A DNA stretch of 64,000 bases from Luteibacter rhizovicinus (GTDB taxonomy: Bacteria > Pseudomonadota > Gammaproteobacteria > Xanthomonadales > Rhodanobacteraceae): contig NZ_SMCS01000001.1 of assembly GCF_004342265.1 (NCBI RefSeq), forward strand, positions 62,001-126,000, read 5' to 3'. A model generated the notes under the pieces. The model did no database searches. It saw only the letters and a program-made list of their open reading frames with translations, and was not told where the DNA came from. Every line of letters starts with the position of its first letter. Position 1 is the stretch's first letter. This document shows, in pieces, positions 4,629 to 64,000 of the stretch. The translations under genes and the position numbers were made by a program.

Positions 4629-4682
4629 CGTGGCATTTCGAAATTAATATGCGCGCTTCGATTGACGATCTGGGGGGGGGGC

Positions 4683-5009
4683 GGCTCGGCTTCGCCATCG
4701 CTTTCGCGCTCGGACGTTTCGGGGAGAGCCGTCGGCCACCACCCTCGACGCTCCGGCTTCACCGTCGCTCGGGAAGGGAGAGCCGCTTTGCGGCTTTTGT
4801 CTGATGGCTGCGCCCCGTCGCGCCCGCGCTGCGGGCGGGGGTTTTCGATTCGGCATCCCTGCCTCAGCGAAAACGGCGGACCGTCCAGGTCCGCCCCCTG
4901 CGGGCCTTTTCCGCCCGCCGCGCTCGGTTGCGCAAGTCGCGTCGAGGGTGGTGGCCGACGGCTCTTCCGGATGTTGCGGTCACGTAGGGGAAGGCATTGC
5001 GTCGACGCA
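4683..5009. repeat. Long palindromic dispersed repeat A, copy 1
   Basis: The core at 4725-4965 (241 bp) is bounded by perfect 26-nt inverted arms (4725-4750 and 4940-4965). Similarity to copy 2 (56615-56943) extends outward to about 4683 and 5009. In the core I count 10 differences from copy 2 by eye, about 96% identity. Smaller hairpins lie inside, for example GCGGACCGTCCAGGTCCGCC and CCCGCGCTGCGGG followed by a short T run. It fills the gap between fsr and murB. ORFs across it are not convincing coding sequence. It could be a non-autonomous mobile element or a structured RNA. Target-site duplications were not identified. Confidence 0.85.
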
Positions 5010-5036
5010 CGAGCGTGAGGCGGCTGTCCTTAAAGA

Positions 5037-11539: not shown

Positions 11540-11678
11540 TGTGGGAGCGCGCCTGCGCGCGAAAGCCAACGGAGCGAGGAAGCTGGGTGCTCACATTCGC
11601 GAGCCCGATCTCCTGGCTGCGGATGTCGCGTACGGCATCTACGCTCCGTTGGCTTTCGCGCGCAGGCGCGCTCCCACA
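11540..11678. repeat. Palindromic element, TGTAGGAGC family, copy 2
   Basis: 139 bp with perfect 37-nt inverted arms (11540-11576 and 11642-11678), beginning TGTGGGAGCGCGCCTGCGCG. The centre resembles the 2357-2495 copy. It lies between the tRNA and the 3' end of the hydrolase gene. A transcript would fold into one long hairpin. Confidence 0.88.
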
Positions 11679-17739: not shown

Positions 17740-17831
17740 GGTCGGTCGCGATGGGGCTAAACGGCCATGATAGCGGGGTGGGGGAACGGACTAACGCTGC
17801 GGTTGCACAACCCGATGCGGCGATGGCTCTC

Positions 17832-17925
17832 TGTGGGAGCGAGCCTGCTCGCGAAAGCAATCTTGCGTGGAGCATCGGCTGTGCGATGTCGCGATCGGGT
17901 TTTCGCGAGCAGGCTCGCTCCTACA
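17832..17925. repeat. Palindromic element, TGTAGGAGC family, short copy
   Basis: Inverted arms at 17832-17857 and 17900-17925 begin TGTGGGAGCGAGCCTGCTCG. The total is 94 bp, shorter than the two 139-bp copies, and the centre differs. It sits between mccB and the lipoprotein gene. Confidence 0.85.
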
Positions 17926-17940
17926 GAAAGCAGACGGCAC

Positions 17941-33403: not shown

Positions 33404-33597
33404 GGAACCAGCCGTCCCCCTCGCCGGGCCCACGTCGGGCGGTCGCTGCGCGACGCGGGTGGACTGGCGGGGCTTCGTGAGCGGGCTTCCTGCCCGCACA
33501 CGAAGGAAGGGGCGTCCTGCCCCTTCCCCCCTTCGGGGCCTACCCGCCCGACCAGCCTCGCCCTCCTACCGGGCCCGGCGAGGGGGCGGCTGGTTCC
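33404..33597. repeat. Long palindromic element B
   Basis: Arms at 33404-33431 and 33571-33597 (28 and 27 nt) are inverted repeats identical except for one extra base. The arm begins GGAACCAGCCG and ends TCGCCGGGCCC. Between them are smaller hairpins (GCGGGCTTCCTGCCCGC-like, GGAAGGGGCGTCCTGCCCCTTCC-like, CCCCCTTCGGGG). It is similar in build to repeat A but has a different sequence. Only one copy was found in the window. Confidence 0.8.
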
Positions 33598-33674
33598 GCC
33601 GGGCGCTGAGGCGATGGGCATGCAGAGCTAACGAGCAAAGCGAACCGCTGACAATGCCTCGCGCCACCTCACCC

Positions 33675-33822
33675 CTCACCGTCATTCCGGCGCACGCCGG
33701 AATCCGCGGCGAGGTGGTCGGTGGTCGCGAGGGCGATGGCCGCTTTTAAGCGAAAACCTCAGCGTTGGATCTTGCCCCACGTGGTCGCTGCGGACCTCGG
33801 CGTACGCCGGGGTGACGGTGAG
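33675..33822. repeat. Inverted pair of GTCATTCCGGCG-type repeats
   Basis: Units at 33675-33707 and 33790-33822 are in opposite orientation. Each has the form CTCACCGTCA, a dyad around CGGCGCACGCCG, then TCCGC. The first is the clean form; the second has several changes. The same pair type occurs at 40941-41078. Confidence 0.8.
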
Positions 33823-34035
33823 GAAGACGACGTCGTGAGGTGGTCGTCGGCATCACGCGCGCAAACGGCTCATAACCCCAGGATTTTCCCACCGATCGGA
33901 AGGAAGCCGGGGCCGCGACATGGGTGGCCACGGCTTCCTTTGCCTCATCGCCGCACGTTGCGATGCTTTCCCTCACGACAGAAGCGCCGAAATCCACGCC
34001 CCGTAGAGACCGCGCCCGAGAGCGCTCCTACAAGG

Positions 34036-40899: not shown

Positions 40900-40940
40900 G
40901 GTGGGGTTGTCGGCGGTGGGGTAAGTCTCACTGCATCGCT

Positions 40941-41078
40941 GCGGATTCCGGCGTGCGCCGGAATGACGGTGAGGGGGTAGCGTGTCTGCAAGTCACATCG
41001 TGGCCCCATGGAGCGCATCAGGATGATGGACGCGTATCTGCAACCCTCTTCGTCATCCCGGCGCACGCCGGGATCCGC
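40941..41078. repeat. Inverted pair of GTCATTCCGGCG-type repeats
   Basis: Units at 40941-40973 and 41051-41078 face each other. Both hold the dyad CCGGCGCACGCCGG (or its reverse) flanked by GTCAT and TCCGCAGCG. They lie between the convergent DUF5916 and NmrA-like genes and may serve as a terminator. Confidence 0.85.
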
Positions 41079-41111
41079 AGCGACCACGTATGGCCAGCGA
41101 CATCCCGTCTT

Positions 41112-56576: not shown

Positions 56577-56614
56577 GAGAGCATAAAAAAGGGTCTTCAC
56601 GCATTGTCGGGGAG

Positions 56615-56943
56615 GGCTCGGCTTTGCCATCGCGTTCGCGCTCGGGCGCTTCGGGGAGAGCCGTCGGCCACCACCCTCGACGCTCCGGCTTCACCGTCGC
56701 TCGGGGAAGGAGAGCCGCTGCGCGGCTTGTGTCTGATGGCTGCGCCCCGTCGCGCCCGCGCTGCGGGCGGGGGTTTTTGATTCGGCATCCTTGCCTCAGC
56801 AAAAACGGCGGACCGTCCAGGTCCGCCCCCTGCGGGCCTGATCCGCCCGCCGCGCTCGGTTGCGCAAGTCGCGTCGAGGGTGGTGGCCGACGGCTCTGCC
56901 GAACGCTGCGGTCACGTGGGGGGAAAGCATGGCGTCGACGCAT
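56615..56943. repeat. Long palindromic dispersed repeat A, copy 2
   Basis: Core 56657-56897 (241 bp, the same length as copy 1) with perfect 26-nt inverted arms at 56657-56682 and 56872-56897. Internal hairpins match those of copy 1 (4683-5009). The outer 42-bp left flank has the same spacing in both copies. Confidence 0.85.
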
Positions 56944-57010
56944 GGGTATAGCTGATCCCATTACGTGCGCAGGCTCGTGCTCTCCCCACAGCCAACCGCA
57001 ACCGACGGTG

Positions 57011-57138
57011 CCGTGGCCGGGTTGGCCCTTGGGGCCGCCTTAGCCGAGGGCCGCGATACCCAGTTGGAGCGAAAGCGGGACTACGGCCCGCTCCCGAAGG
57101 GACGGCGCCGAAGGCTCCAAGGGCCAACCCGGTCGCGG
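57011..57138. repeat. Long palindromic element C
   Basis: Arms at 57011-57036 and 57113-57138 (26 nt) pair at 23 positions exactly, and the three remaining positions would be G-U pairs in RNA. The shared core of each arm contains GGGTTGGCCCTTGG. It is of the same general build as elements A and B but unrelated in sequence. Confidence 0.78.
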
Positions 57139-57207
57139 CTTCCACGACGCACGAGCGTGAGCGGCCAGGCCGCTGATAACACGAGGCGCGCCAGTGCGCA
57201 AAGAACC

Positions 57208-57236
57208 AAAAAAAGCCCCGGCGTTAAGCCGGGGCT
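57208..57236 (-). terminator. Rho-independent terminator of the subtilase gene
   Basis: On the minus strand, a stem AGCCCCGGC / GCCGGGGCT with a short TTAA-containing loop is followed by seven T residues, 27 bases after the subtilase stop. Confidence 0.92.
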
Positions 57237-59288: not shown

Positions 59289-62200
59289 CTACCAGCCGAA
59301 GCTGACGCCGACCGTGCCGCTGGACTCACCGCCCCCCGCGATGCTTCCACCGACCAACACACTGCCGGTCTCCGACACGCGGCTCGAATAGCCCACGGCA
59401 AGAGCACCCTGTCCGCGATAGCCGCCGACCGCCGCGCTGACGCGGTGATCGGTACCCGGCGCGCTGGCTATCGCGCCCGCCATGCCTGCCATGGCCGTGC
59501 CCATCGCACCCACGCGATCGAGGCGGGTATTCACGGTATGGAACTGATCGCTGACCTGGTTTCGGTACGAGTTGAAGTCCGTGCTGGAAACGCTGCTGGA
59601 GATCTTCGTATCGGTGTAAGCCTTCGCGTCGCTGAGCGTCTTCTGGTCGCCGGCATCCGCATAGGATTTGGCGGTGGTCAACGCCTGGTCGACCTGGGCG
59701 ACATTGGCGGCATCGGTGGGCGCCGTGCCGGCCGCGACATTGACGATCTGCCGTTCGCCGCCCACCTTGCCGACCGAGACGGTGTTGGCTCGATCCGCGA
59801 CGGAATTCGCGCCCAGTGCGACGCTGTTGGCGGCGGATGCCTGCGCGCCCTGACCGATGGCCGACGCGGAGGCCGCCGTGACCGTCGTGTCGGCACCGAT
59901 AGCGACGGCGTTGGTTGCCGCCGCGCTGATGTTGGCGTTGTTGCCATAGGCCGTGCTGCCATCCGCGCCGACAAAAGCGTTGTGGCCCACGGCGGTATCG
60001 CGACCGTCGGTGGCTACGCTGCCCGTTCCGAGGGCCAACCCGTTACCGGTGCCCGGGCCCGCTTGCGCACTTCCCTGGCTGACGTTGTTTCCGACCTGGG
60101 TCTTCAGGCTCGACAGGTCGGTCAGCGCGCCGGTGAGGGCTCCGTCCAGTGCGCCGAAGGCATCGCTCATGTTCGTGTAATGCGTGCCCTGCACCGCGAA
60201 CGTGGGCCCGACCAGACCGCCGCTGCCGAGCGACATGCCACCGCCCAGTGCCTGCGACACGGCATGGCCCATGTCGTAAAGCTGGCTCCCGTTCACCACT
60301 TCGCTGCTGTCCGCCGCAATGCGGCCGGCGGCTACGCCGGCGAGCGTGGTTCCGCCCTGACCCGAGAACGTGACGCGTCCCTGATCCAGGTTGTCGTAGC
60401 CGACCGCGTTGACCGCCTGTCCTGTGCTGACGAGATTGTGCACCGTGGCGTCGAGCTGCCCCTTGTTCACCGCGTCGGTGCTTTCGGTGCCTGCGCCGAC
60501 GTTCGTGATCTGGCGCGTCTGCGCGGCATGGACGTTGCCGGCGGCGTCGGTCCATTCGGCGGAGGCGCCGACGGAGACGCTGTTCGCACGGTCCGCGAGC
60601 GATTCCGCGCCGAGGGCGACGCTGTTGGTTGCACTCTTCGTAGTCCACGCGTTGGAGCCGAGCACGCTGGAGTTGGTCGCCTGTGCATAGCTGTTGTAGC
60701 CAACGACGGTCGCGCCGTCTTCGGTCGCCCAGGCTTCGCTACCGAGGGCGGTCGTGTTGTCCGCGTGGGTGAGGCTCGACGTGTCGGCACCGGCCAGTGC
60801 GTTCGTGCCGAGCGACGTGGCGGACATGCCCGTGGCTGCCGAGCCGGCACCGATCGCCGTGCTGTAGTCGCCCGATGCATTCGCGCCGCCACCGAAGAAT
60901 CCGCCCACACTACCGATCGCGGTGCTCGCTGCGCCGGACGCGCTGGATTCGGCGCCTAGTGCGGTCGAATAGCCTCCTCCTGCGTAGGCCGCCGTACCGA
61001 TGGCGGTGCTCTCCCATGCGGCGGCATAAGAGCCCATACCGAACGCGCTGGACTGCCAGGCGTCGGCAAGCGAGAAACTGCCTACCGCCGTGGAGAACGG
61101 CCCGTTCGTCTGCGCGCCCGCACCGATCGCCACACTGAGTGCGCCGTTGGCCTGTGCGCTGTTGCCCATGGCGACACCGCTCGCGGCATTGCTTACGGCG
61201 CCGTAGCCGACCGCCGTGCTGTTGCCTCCGAGCGCCTGACTGTTCGAGCCCACGGCAGTCGTGCCGTCCTGATCGGCCACGCTGTTGCTACCCACGGATG
61301 TACTTTCATTGCCGATGGCCTGCGCGTTTTCGCCATAGGCCGATGTGTGATCGCCTTGCGCCAGCGCGGCATAACCGCTGGCCGTGGCGAACTGGCCGAC
61401 CGAGACCGCGCCCGTGCCGATGGCGGTGCCGCCCGTGCCATAACTCGCCGCACCCGATCCGACGGCCATCGCGAGTTTTCCTTCGGCGATCGCATCGTCG
61501 CCGCTGTCGCCCGTGCCGTTGACCTTGAGGTAATGGCTGGATGCGCCCGCCATCTGGTTCAGTTGCGACACGTTCACCGCATCGTTGGCTTCCGTGCCGG
61601 CGGCGACGTTGGCGATCTGTCGTGTCTGTGCCGGATGGACGGTGCCAGCGGCATCGGTCCAGTCGGCGCCCGCACCGACCGATACCGTGTTCGCGCGATC
61701 GGCAAGGGAACCCGCTCCGAGCGATACGCTATTCGTGGCGTCTTTCGTGGTCCACGCGTTCGAGCCAAGCACGGTGGCATTCGTGGCCTGCGCGTAGCTG
61801 TTGTAACCGAGCACGCTGGCGCCATCCTCGGTCGCCCAGGCTTCGCTGCCGATGGCGGTCGTGTTGTCGGCGTGGCTGAGGCTGCCCGCGTCGGCACCGG
61901 CCAGCGCGTTCGTGCCGAGCGATGTGCCCGACGTGCCCGAAGCGCCGGCACCCGCACCGACGGCAACACCATAGTCGCCCGATGCGTTCGCGCCGCCGCC
62001 GAAGAAACCGCCGATGCCGCCGACGGCCGTACTGGAATTTCCCGTCGCCGATGCTTCGGTACCGATCGCGGTAGCGTATCCGCCGCCCGCATGAGCCGAT
62101 GCGCCCAAGGCCGTACTGCCCCAGGCTTCGGCATAGGAACCGGTACCGTAGGCGGTCGCCTGCCACGCGCTCGCTGTCGAGAACGCGCCCACGGCGGTGG

Positions 62201-64000
62201 AGAAGGGACCGTCCGTGATGGCTTGCGCGCCAATCGCGGTACTCATGGCGCCGTTGGCCTGCGAGGCGAAGCCGATGGCCACGCCGCTCGCCGCATTGCT
62301 CACGCTGCCATAGCCGATCGCCGTGCTGGCGCCACCGAGCGCCTGGCTGCCCGAGCCGACGGCAGTCGTCCCGTCCAGATCGGCCACGCTGTTGCTGCCG
62401 AGCGCCGTGCTTTCGATGCCGTTGGCCTGTGCGTTTTCGCCATAGGCTGCGCTGTGGTCGCCCTGGGCCAGGGCCCCGTAACCGTTCGCCGTGGCGAACT
62501 GACCGACCGACACCGCGCCCGTACCGATGGCGGTGCCACCCGTGCCGTAACTGGCGGCGCCCGAACCGGCCGCCATCGAAAGATCGCCCTCGGCGATGGC
62601 GTCGTCTCCGCCGTCGCCCGTGCCGTTGACCTTGAGGTAGTGGCTGGACGTGCCGGCGGCCTGATTCAGCTGCGCGACGTTCACCGCGTCGGTGCCTTCC
62701 GTTCCGGCGGCGACATTGGTGATCTGTCGCGTTACCGGATCGTGCGTATTGCCGAGTCCATCGGTCCACGACTGATTGCTGCCGACCGACACCGTGCCGG
62801 CACGATCCGCGAGCGAGCCGTGGCCGATCGCTACCGCGTTGTCGGCACCTTTGAGTACGCGGCTGTACGAGCCGAGCGCCGTACCGTTATCGGCCAGCGA
62901 CCATGCGTTCGAACCGAACGATGCCGTGGATGCGTTCTGTGCGTATGCGTTGTAACCCACGGCGGTGCCGTCGTTTCCCGCGCCGGATTCGCCACCGACC
63001 GCGACGCCGCTCACGGCCAGTCCGCCGTTTTCGCCGGTCCAGTCCAGCACCTTCGCATTGAGACCGACGGCGACCGACACCGGCGCGGCAATCGTGCCGA
63101 CACCGGCGGCGACGCCACCGAAAGCTGCCTGGGCGCCAGCGCCATATGCGGTTCCCCAGAACTCGCTTGCATAGGCGCCTGCGCCGATGGCGGTGGTTTG
63201 CCATCCCGTTGCGGTAGCGCCCATGCCCATGGCGATAGCGAAACCGCCGCTGGCCAGCGATAGCGAACCTACCGAGACGCTGAAGGCCGATTGGGCTACC
63301 GCGCCGTTGCCCGCGGCAATCGAAGACGAACCCTGCGCGAGACTGCCGCTACCCAGCGCCACGGCGCCGCCGCCGTGAGCTTCTGCATTTGCGCCAAGGG
63401 CGAGGCCGCGACTATCGGTGGCGAGCGCGTTTTCGCCAAAGGCCGTAGCGCCCGCTTTAAGCGCCTGGGCGTTATGCCCGTTAGCGGTCGACCCGTCGCC
63501 TTGCGCGAGCGCGCCATATCCGGTGGCCGTAGCGAAGCTGCCGACGGCACCCGCCGCGTTGCCCAGCGCTGTCGCGCCTTCGGCCGTGGCGAAGCTGCCG
63601 CCGCCGACCGCCGTGGCGAAGTCGCCTTGCGCGGCACTCTGGCCGCCGACTGCCGTGGCCTGTGTTCCGGTCGCCAGTCCGTTCTGGCCGATGGCGACGC
63701 TCTGATCGCCTTCGGCGTCGCTGCTGCCGCCCAGCGCCACCGTACCGGCACCCTTTGCGATGGCGTACTGACCGAGCGCTTGCGCCTGGTCGCCGTTTGC
63801 TTGCGCCAGGGAGCCCAGCGCGACCGCTCCGTCGCCATTGGCGTAGGTGGCTTCGCCGGGGTCCGGCTGCCCGTTGCCGTTCAGATCGGTCCAGTTGCTC
63901 CCGCCGATGGCGATCGAGGTATTGCCTAAGGCGGCGGCATAGCTTCCGACCGCGATGCTGTGATCGCCGAGCGCCGCGCTATACGGTCCGAGACTGCTGC
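59289..64000 (-). CDS. Trimeric autotransporter adhesin, YadA-like (5' end beyond window)
   Basis: A very large type Vc adhesin; 1569 residues are visible and the frame stays open to the window edge, so the signal peptide and part of the head lie outside. The visible head consists of YadA-type repeats (pattern ATAxGxxAxAxGxxSxAxG, seen dozens of times). It is divided by neck segments RQITNVAAGTEGTDAVN.AQL that recur about four times. Two consecutive head-plus-neck units of 369 residues are close duplicates. The tail has a coiled-coil stalk (DFNSYRNQVSDQFHTVNTRL) and the C-terminal YadA anchor ending GTVGVSFGW with a terminal Trp. It probably mediates surface or host attachment. A subtilase gene follows it. 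Confidence 0.95.
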   Translation of the reverse strand, partial: SSLGPYSAALGDHSIAVGSYAAALGNTSIAIGGSNWTDLNGNGQPDPGEATYANGDGAVALGSLAQANGDQAQALGQYAIAKGAGTVALGGSSDAEGDQSVAIGQNGLATGTQATAVGGQSAAQGDFATAVGGGSFATAEGATALGNAAGAVGSFATATGYGALAQGDGSTANGHNAQALKAGATAFGENALATDSRGLALGANAEAHGGGAVALGSGSLAQGSSSIAAGNGAVAQSAFSVSVGSLSLASGGFAIAMGMGATATGWQTTAIGAGAYASEFWGTAYGAGAQAAFGGVAAGVGTIAAPVSVAVGLNAKVLDWTGENGGLAVSGVAVGGESGAGNDGTAVGYNAYAQNASTASFGSNAWSLADNGTALGSYSRVLKGADNAVAIGHGSLADRAGTVSVGSNQSWTDGLGNTHDPVTRQITNVAAGTEGTDAVNVAQLNQAAGTSSHYLKVNGTGDGGDDAIAEGDLSMAAGSGAASYGTGGTAIGTGAVSVGQFATANGYGALAQGDHSAAYGENAQANGIESTALGSNSVADLDGTTAVGSGSQALGGASTAIGYGSVSNAASGVAIGFASQANGAMSTAIGAQAITDGPFSTAVGAFSTASAWQATAYGTGSYAEAWGSTALGASAHAGGGYATAIGTEASATGNSSTAVGGIGGFFGGGANASGDYGVAVGAGAGASGTSGTSLGTNALAGADAGSLSHADNTTAIGSEAWATEDGASVLGYNSYAQATNATVLGSNAWTTKDATNSVSLGAGSLADRANTVSVGAGADWTDAAGTVHPAQTRQIANVAAGTEANDAVNVSQLNQMAGASSHYLKVNGTGDSGDDAIAEGKLAMAVGSGAASYGTGGTAIGTGAVSVGQFATASGYAALAQGDHTSAYGENAQAIGNESTSVGSNSVADQDGTTAVGSNSQALGGNSTAVGYGAVSNAASGVAMGNSAQANGALSVAIGAGAQTNGPFSTAVGSFSLADAWQSSAFGMGSYAAAWESTAIGTAAYAGGGYSTALGAESSASGAASTAIGSVGGFFGGGANASGDYSTAIGAGSAATGMSATSLGTNALAGADTSSLTHADNTTALGSEAWATEDGATVVGYNSYAQATNSSVLGSNAWTTKSATNSVALGAESLADRANSVSVGASAEWTDAAGNVHAAQTRQITNVGAGTESTDAVNKGQLDATVHNLVSTGQAVNAVGYDNLDQGRVTFSGQGGTTLAGVAAGRIAADSSEVVNGSQLYDMGHAVSQALGGGMSLGSGGLVGPTFAVQGTHYTNMSDAFGALDGALTGALTDLSSLKTQVGNNVSQGSAQAGPGTGNGLALGTGSVATDGRDTAVGHNAFVGADGSTAYGNNANISAAATNAVAIGADTTVTAASASAIGQGAQASAANSVALGANSVADRANTVSVGKVGGERQIVNVAAGTAPTDAANVAQVDQALTTAKSYADAGDQKTLSDAKAYTDTKISSSVSSTDFNSYRNQVSDQFHTVNTRLDRVGAMGTAMAGMAGAIASAPGTDHRVSAAVGGYRGQGALAVGYSSRVSETGSVLVGGSIAGGGESSGTVGVSFGW
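60450..62668 (-). repeat. 1107-bp tandem duplication inside the adhesin gene
   Basis: Sequence around the SSHYLKVNGTG codons at 62622 recurs at 61515, exactly 1107 bp (369 codons) apart, and similarity continues over the whole unit, giving copies at about 61560-62668 and 60450-61560. The units differ by scattered changes, so the duplication is not recent, but recombination between them could change the length. End points are approximate. Confidence 0.85.
63852..63887 (-). other. Calcium-loop-like insert in the adhesin head
   Basis: Codons for DLNGNGQPDPGE interrupt the YadA head repeats. The spacing of Asp, Asn, Asn, Asp and Glu is that of dockerin/thrombospondin-type calcium loops. Metal binding is inferred only from this pattern. 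Confidence 0.5.

Follow-up and report, generated by a model that had tools for sequence, protein, structure and literature searches.

The two long-armed palindromic sequences noted in a 64,000-nucleotide stretch of the Luteibacter rhizovicinus genome (the whole of which is called the window below) belong to a transposase-less mobile element, and the 241-bp core by which they were recognized is one of its modules. Insertion takes place at the U-tract of intrinsic terminators, most often in the space between convergent genes. Our favored reading, which we hold tentatively, is that it is a mobile, terminator-inserting carrier of paired GGA hairpins of the TwoAYGGAY type that may have a role as minus-strand RNA through CsrA/RsmA.

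The original prediction placed two 241-bp cores at positions 4725-4965 and 56657-56897, with about 10 differences between them. Both copies were found at these coordinates, and the exact count is 10 differences in 241 nt. The arms are perfectly complementary, as had been claimed, with a measured length of 27 nt in each core instead of 26. The flanks of both cores match too, in agreement with the prediction, because the cores lie in a 300-nt direct repeat (4677-4976 and 56609-56908) that is 93% identical. What did not hold was the view of 241 bp as the whole element, since these boundaries are too narrow and enclose an inner module of something larger, and the count of two: a third, diverged module in the window had been overlooked (Table 1), and the genome holds 30 near-complete copies. 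The third module has two minus-strand GGA-loop hairpins, as do copies 1 and 2, and its 27-28-nt arms differ from theirs. In copy 1 the 5′ terminal repeat is unrecognizable and the 3′ half is reduced to a short remnant. Copy 1 is flanked by convergent genes for an MFS transporter and MurB, and copy 2 by convergent genes for a CxxCxxCC protein and a subtilase. The minus strand folded as RNA gave a z score of -9.7 and the plus strand folded as DNA a z score of -9.0; in each case 0 of 200 dinucleotide shuffles were equally stable.

Table 1. Features of the element in the window.
Feature	Position	Strand	Remarks
Copy 1 of the element	4672-5036	+	Full hairpin module; shortened copy reaching the end of murB
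Outer stem of copy 1, left arm	4725-4751	+	
Outer stem of copy 1, right arm	4939-4965	+	
Inner hairpin P5, copy 1	4841-4874	-	Loop with GGA; stem GTTTTCG...CGAAAAC
Inner hairpin P6, copy 1	4875-4895	-	Loop UGGAC, then GTTTT (terminator-like)
Third, diverged module	33404-33597	+	Arms 33404-33431 and 33571-33597 (96%)
Copy 2 of the element	~56591-57207	+	Complete element, 617 bp; terminal inverted repeats GGGTCTTCACGC / GCGCAAAGAACC
Hairpin module of copy 2	56657-56897	+	241 bp
P5 and P6 GGA-loop hairpin pair, copy 2	56773-56827	-	
Second palindromic module (hairpin C), copy 2	57010-57139	+	Arms 57010-57036 and 57113-57139
U-tract and terminator-like hairpin of the neighboring subtilase gene	57208-57236	-	Abuts the 3′ end of copy 2

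The other 29 near-complete copies in the genome are 91-96% identical to copy 1, and partial copies are present as well. The aligned copies extend to approximately 690 bp at most and share one layout. Inside the terminal inverted repeats GGTTCTTCACGC / GCGTGAAGAACC, a short hairpin precedes the 241-bp module, and a linker leads from there to a second palindromic module and a 3′ part. Both terminal inverted repeats were recognized, allowing up to 3 mismatches, in 16 of the 30 copies; the second half is shortened in some, and from one copy (L182) the 241-bp module is cleanly missing. Within this genome, departures from the consensus affect 0.3% of sites in the arms versus 2.9% inside. The element has two of the traits that define MITEs, terminal inverted repeats and the lack of a transposase; the same inverted repeats rule out a PATE, a class that has none. 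Four open frames of 113-216 residues overlapping the two window copies had no Pfam match. The prediction had named location within a conserved protein-coding frame as grounds for abandoning it; no reading frame is open throughout, the best one being open in 22 of 35 modules. This, the frames without Pfam match and the covariation described below led us to reject a protein-coding origin. Elsewhere in the window, a very long open frame with internal repeats 1107 nt apart occupies 59289-63740 on the minus strand, and another dispersed palindromic repeat, of the GTCATTCCGGCGCACGCCGGAATCC type, is found at 33672-33823 and 40936-41097.

The prediction of a mobile, non-autonomous element was borne out by comparison with a close relative, G020, chosen as the best match at groEL. 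Seventeen loci were looked up in its genome, and both flanks could be aligned at 14; at 13 of these the element, which has no transposase, is absent. At 11 of the 13 element-free sites the flank matches are separated by no more than 105 bp; the other two (L010 and L028) hold intervening sequence of a different kind, 340 and 1137 bp long. At the fourteenth locus, that of window copy 1, G020 has a degenerate related remnant.

The target is apparent from the sequences next to the ends. In 17 of 30 copies an element end has an intrinsic terminator pointing at it, compared with 29 of 4000 random positions. In this count a copy with an unrecognized 3′ end was unable to score on that side; inspection by eye raised the number of copies with a neighboring terminator to about 23 of 30. 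The terminator is kept at 11 of 15 G020 sites tested. Where both flanking genes were called (28 copies, by crude gene calls), they are convergent in 17 cases and divergent in 1. As judged by eye, many copies have A-runs at both ends, and copies outside homopolymers lack a target duplication. Similar outer stems were seen by eye behind the same terminator at groEL of three other species (L068, L073 and L082), in whose groEL-side sequences a covariance model of the core, R1, found no core. Plasmid or phage spread was not borne out as far as searched, with no match for the window module in the plasmid sequences and none for a relative's element in the phage sequences.

The orientation of the copies is biased. 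All eight copies on contig C1 are on the plus strand and all seven on contig C2 on the minus strand. Read in the direction of the element, GC skew is positive for 24 of the 30 short flanks and, in larger intervals, for which 22 of the 30 copies were used, for 19 of 22, the three exceptions all being on contig C5. Of the copies with a terminator, 7 have it on the 5′ side of the element and 10 on the 3′ side; 10 are read from it on the GGA strand and 7 on the opposite strand. Since it can stand on either side, the terminator is not what sets the orientation of the element. Element orientation follows replication and not the terminator. Replication-linked orientation and terminator targeting together point to a recombination mechanism.

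Covariation was measured in an alignment of 35 modules, drawn from the window and from relatives. Its 61 consensus pairs show 95.3% pairing, and changes on both sides occur in 44 of them. The number of cells changed on both sides is 293, compared to 76 in shuffles and 30-55 with slid partners. The arms are therefore not subject to the random drift that would have spoken against the original prediction; they are kept by compensating changes. The suggestion of a conserved RNA is upheld as far as structure is concerned: covariation between species extends to the arms and the inner hairpins, and the core has a relative in TwoAYGGAY, a known candidate RNA. Among 115 distinct rows, TCC (GGA on the minus strand) is present in the P5 loop of 109 and in the P6 loop of 105, and the two other loops vary. 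The window's own genome shows one and the same GGA pair, at constant spacing, in 30 of 30 copies, and adjacent loop bases vary.

Wobble pairs were used to ask which strand is the structured one. For 18 pairs of P5 and P6, a tally that leaves out the loop-closing pair of P5, the 115 distinct rows contain, on the plus strand, 20 A-C cells (equivalent to minus-strand G-U) versus 2 G-T cells. Many of the 20 are common to related sequences; the counts become 26 versus 2 with duplicates (121 rows) and about 10 versus 2 when related sequences are merged by eye. When all 36 pairs of R1 are taken together, G-T cells on the plus strand number 129 and A-C cells 53; this is due to a single pair with G-T in 94 of the 115 rows and to the weak P5 loop-closing pair with G-T in 8. 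The strand argument is weakened by these plus-strand G-T pairs and by the duplicate rows. Of the 61 module pairs, 57 were tallied on the plus strand and yielded 19 G-T and 35 A-C cells, so that the outer arms are DNA-palindrome-like and at most lean to the minus strand. Hairpin-templated repair could be another way of keeping the arms perfect.

Minus-strand matches to the Rfam family RF01731 (TwoAYGGAY, clan CL00106) were obtained in 7 of 36 sources scanned, and the remaining 29 sources with related modules had none. The sole match above the gathering threshold of 43 bits is L033:1891-1956, at 43.8 bits. Further stretches scored 40.9, 39.4, 38.1, 37.5 and 35.3 bits, L201 had a full-length match of 40.6 and L043 one of 33; similar sub-threshold Rfam scores also fell to unrelated families. 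RsmW, a family of the same clan, gave sub-threshold matches in loci of G077 and a weak one, of 22 bits, in the third window copy. Window copy 1 matched neither RF01731 nor RsmW at E ≤ 10. A scan of the whole window against Rfam at the gathering threshold returned only a tRNA, and a known RNA at curated threshold is thereby ruled out there. The core has the two adjacent hairpins with GGA in their terminal loops that characterize TwoAYGGAY. It does not have AYGGAY in both loops: those in the window hold UGGAC and GGGAU, and relatives such as L033, L040, L041 and L048 have AUGGAU in one hairpin or more. Since window copy 1 stays below the curated threshold, we refer to the element as TwoAYGGAY-like and not as a member of RF01731.

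Related modules are widespread. For this purpose, order, family and genus are the groupings of the genome collection searched, and copy numbers in relatives are lower bounds because few candidates were scored per genome (11 for the module query, 12 for R1 in the family and 7 for R1 in the order). The window module used as a query (E ≤ 1e-5) matched at least 18 of the 22 other genomes of the genus and at least 1 of 14 genomes from other genera of the family; among the matches listed were 0 of 24 genomes from the rest of the order. The covariance model, whose E-values are rough, extended this range to at least 159 of 233 family genomes and at least 22 of 26 genera (E ≤ 1e-4) and, in the order, to at least 142 of 398 genomes and at least 34 of 98 genera (E ≤ 1e-6). 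A search of named genomes with a 22-mer from the arm retrieved three MAG contigs; these matches are probably due to chance because the element profile found nothing in them.

In relatives the module often forms an inward-facing pair, and some pairs enclose 1-3 kb of DNA, sometimes with genes. We examined 20 paired-module regions, chosen mostly for wide gaps and hence uninformative on how frequent cargo is. Above Pfam cutoffs, the cargo consisted of DUF4879 and IS110 only, besides a weak P-loop match; NCBIfam contributed nothing useful, and IS3-like frames were recognized by eye in L102. In G017 (L107-L110), a two-gene cargo encoding small proteins without a Pfam family recurs between paired modules. 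Two diverged versions of this gene pair in one genome are homologous at 29% and 35% identity, which argues that the genes are real. In other genera the core has other surroundings and in several loci stands beside a CTTTGCTTGCCCAAAGAAAAGTAACC-like repeat. At L201, L206, L207 and other loci of such genera, the neighbor of the core is a CTTTGCTTGCCCAAAGAAAAGTAACCAAAAGAAAGGGCACC-like repeat; plasmid-collection records of Burkholderia, Aeromonas and Pasteurella also match short pieces of that repeat. At one G020 locus (L210), a TwoAYGGAY-like core and a C4 antisense RNA (944-1033 and 1521-1587) are about 500 bp apart; C4 antisense RNA is a regulator type of phage P4-like elements.

The P5 and P6 hairpins resemble sites at which CsrA/RsmA, a global RNA-binding regulator, docks, and binding to them is putative. 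One can envisage that a recombinase acting in trans moves the element and that transcripts entering it on the minus strand would expose the paired GGA hairpins. The exposed hairpins would bind a CsrA/RsmA dimer, with titration of the regulator or an effect on the 3′ end of the neighboring transcript as the outcome. In relatives with two inward-facing modules, one GGA pair would be exposed whichever side transcription came from, and such an arrangement would suit a site between convergent genes. A scan covering few promoter types found no σ70-like promoter in either window copy, and a start motif that we take to be that of CsrA was not found in the genome pieces examined. A bolder version, which we regard as rather unlikely, is that the family spreads ready-made RsmA/CsrA docking sites to gene 3′ ends across the whole order and acts as a putative sponge. 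Each element would then set a paired GGA hairpin behind a terminator, and read-through from many operons would jointly set the level of free regulator in a distributed, transposon-built manner.

The proposal of an RNA role has to be weighed against a reading of the element as a purely selfish transposase-less repeat (MITE or SMR type), in which the TCC-loop hairpins would serve recombinase recognition on single-stranded DNA and have no function as RNA. This is a real possibility. It accounts for mobility at orthologous sites and for cargo genes between the modules of relatives' elements, and the replication-linked orientation is what one may expect of a single-stranded target or donor. The near-perfectly complementary arms with little wobble, and the plus-strand G-T at one conserved pair, also fit it. 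Against it stand the excess of minus-strand wobble in P5 and P6, the resemblance of the core to TwoAYGGAY, which others had described as probably an RNA, and the other surroundings of the core in other genera. In addition, it calls for a recombinase, and none was found among the end-motif sites inspected. The end motif has 152 matches in the genome with at most 1 mismatch, 19 of them exact. Of 30 such sites retrieved, the 15 outside known copies were inspected; one is a deleted copy and the rest are coding-like by eye, so that no parent transposon with matching ends was found among them. A pair of ends 887 bp apart (L181) was rejected as a parent, for it has no module by profile and is ordinary coding sequence by eye. 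No transposase recurs as an obvious partner in the 20 regions of relatives examined. A tentative lead was ISL3-type ends.

The module might instead terminate transcription in both directions, as a portable insulator of convergent genes, its insertion beside terminators being tolerated because it adds termination. Both copies do carry a terminator-like hairpin per strand (P6-GTTTT on the minus strand and a CCCGC hairpin followed by GGTTTT on the plus strand). Copy 1 has 2 terminator-like hairpins versus a shuffle mean of 0.6 and copy 2 has 4 versus 0.8, one of the latter being the neighbor's own and two overlapping; the convergent context of 17 of 28 copies also agrees with this role. We nevertheless find it improbable, since the U-tracts are merely four or five T, a terminator has no need for loops that keep GGA, and most target sites have a terminator already (11 of 15 G020 sites).

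Least probable, in our view very much so, is a composite REP/BIME moved by a domesticated RAYT (TnpA-REP) transposase: a Y1_Tnp gene is present in 21 of 23 genomes of the genus, missing in G007 (80% complete) and in G020, which itself has no window-module match among those listed, and a GTAGGA-type REP lies, as seen by eye, outside one or both ends of 6 of 7 G017 elements (4 have it at both, with one side degenerate) and beside L116 of G001, but the ends GGTTCTTCACGC in the window's own genome carry no GTAG tag, three genomes of the genus (G013, G014 and G015) have Y1_Tnp and no module among the matches listed, and G020 has at least 2 diverged partial cores elsewhere, detected by R1. The distribution of Y1_Tnp is, as such, compatible with a RAYT role. 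Among the R1 matches listed, G013 and G014 had no core and G015 at least 5 weaker core matches; G020 is without both a listed module match and a Y1_Tnp gene. The GTAG or CGTC tag beside a hairpin that marks REP/BIME ends is lacking in the window's own genome. A simple REP is thus ruled out, as the original prediction had it. REP-like palindromes do occur in the window as inverted pairs of the GTAGGAGC or GTGGGAGC type (2355-2496, 11540-11678 and 17826-17931), and these resemble the ones beside a Y1_Tnp (RAYT) gene in L184.

Several known systems share features with the element. Like the SMRs of Haloquadratum (PMC3119063), it is transposase-less and has a strong target preference. In the available text of that source, SMRs have inverted ends that resemble no known transposon, lack a target duplication and are mobilized in an unknown way; SMR-A is an archaeal sequence of about 110 bp that targets other mobile elements, whereas the element described here reaches approximately 690 bp and targets terminators. 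With MITEs as outlined in PMC10969869 it has in common the lack of a transposase, terminal inverted repeats, intergenic location and many copies. Unlike them, it has long structured modules, cargo in relatives, no clear target duplication and no parent transposon in the part inspected, the comparison of its ends with transposon ends covering part of the matches within its own genome. REP/BIME sequences with RAYT are likewise palindromic extragenic repeats, and a Y1_Tnp gene is present in the genome; REPs are given as 20-40 bp long and mostly GTAG- or CGTC-tagged in the available parts of PMC8266576 and PMC3733652, and the REP-like pairs of the window stand apart from the element.

For the RNA role that we favor, the RrA/B/F sRNAs of E. 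coli provide a precedent: PMC8144298 presents a CsrA-binding RNA located just after a terminator and made by read-through, as proposed here. These sRNAs are three fixed copies in rRNA operons with phenotypes reported as modest, and the available text does not describe them as mobile. In Xanthomonas campestris, RsmU is an RsmA-binding RNA derived from a 3′ untranslated region (PMC7694677), and changing its four GGA motifs did not abolish RsmA binding. RsmU is set apart from the element by its description, in the accessible text, as a single locus that has no Rfam homologue and is confined to Xanthomonas. The survey published in the same source, as far as accessible, reports no homologues of known CsrB/RsmB-type antagonists in Xanthomonas genomes, so a high-copy source of GGA hairpins in this order would allow a direct test of what counteracts RsmA.

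The closest likeness is to TwoAYGGAY itself, with which the core shares an adjacent hairpin pair with GGA-bearing terminal loops. In the text available, TwoAYGGAY is probably an RNA, from human gut, gamma-Proteobacteria and Clostridiales (PMC2864571), and is proposed to be CsrA-binding (PMC4333381); the accessible portions of the literature on it contain no mention of mobility and no experimental test of CsrA binding. Unlike TwoAYGGAY, the core described here is housed in an element that moves and that has long palindromic arms and terminal inverted repeats, with cargo added in relatives. A literature search, with subscription papers mostly beyond its reach, recognized no published description of the element. 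Each half of the picture has a precedent, one in transposase-less repeats with inverted ends and the other in TwoAYGGAY. What is new is a TwoAYGGAY-like core on a terminator-targeting mobile element, a combination for which the search recognized no paper; through it, an orphan RNA motif becomes linked to mobile DNA that has a defined target.
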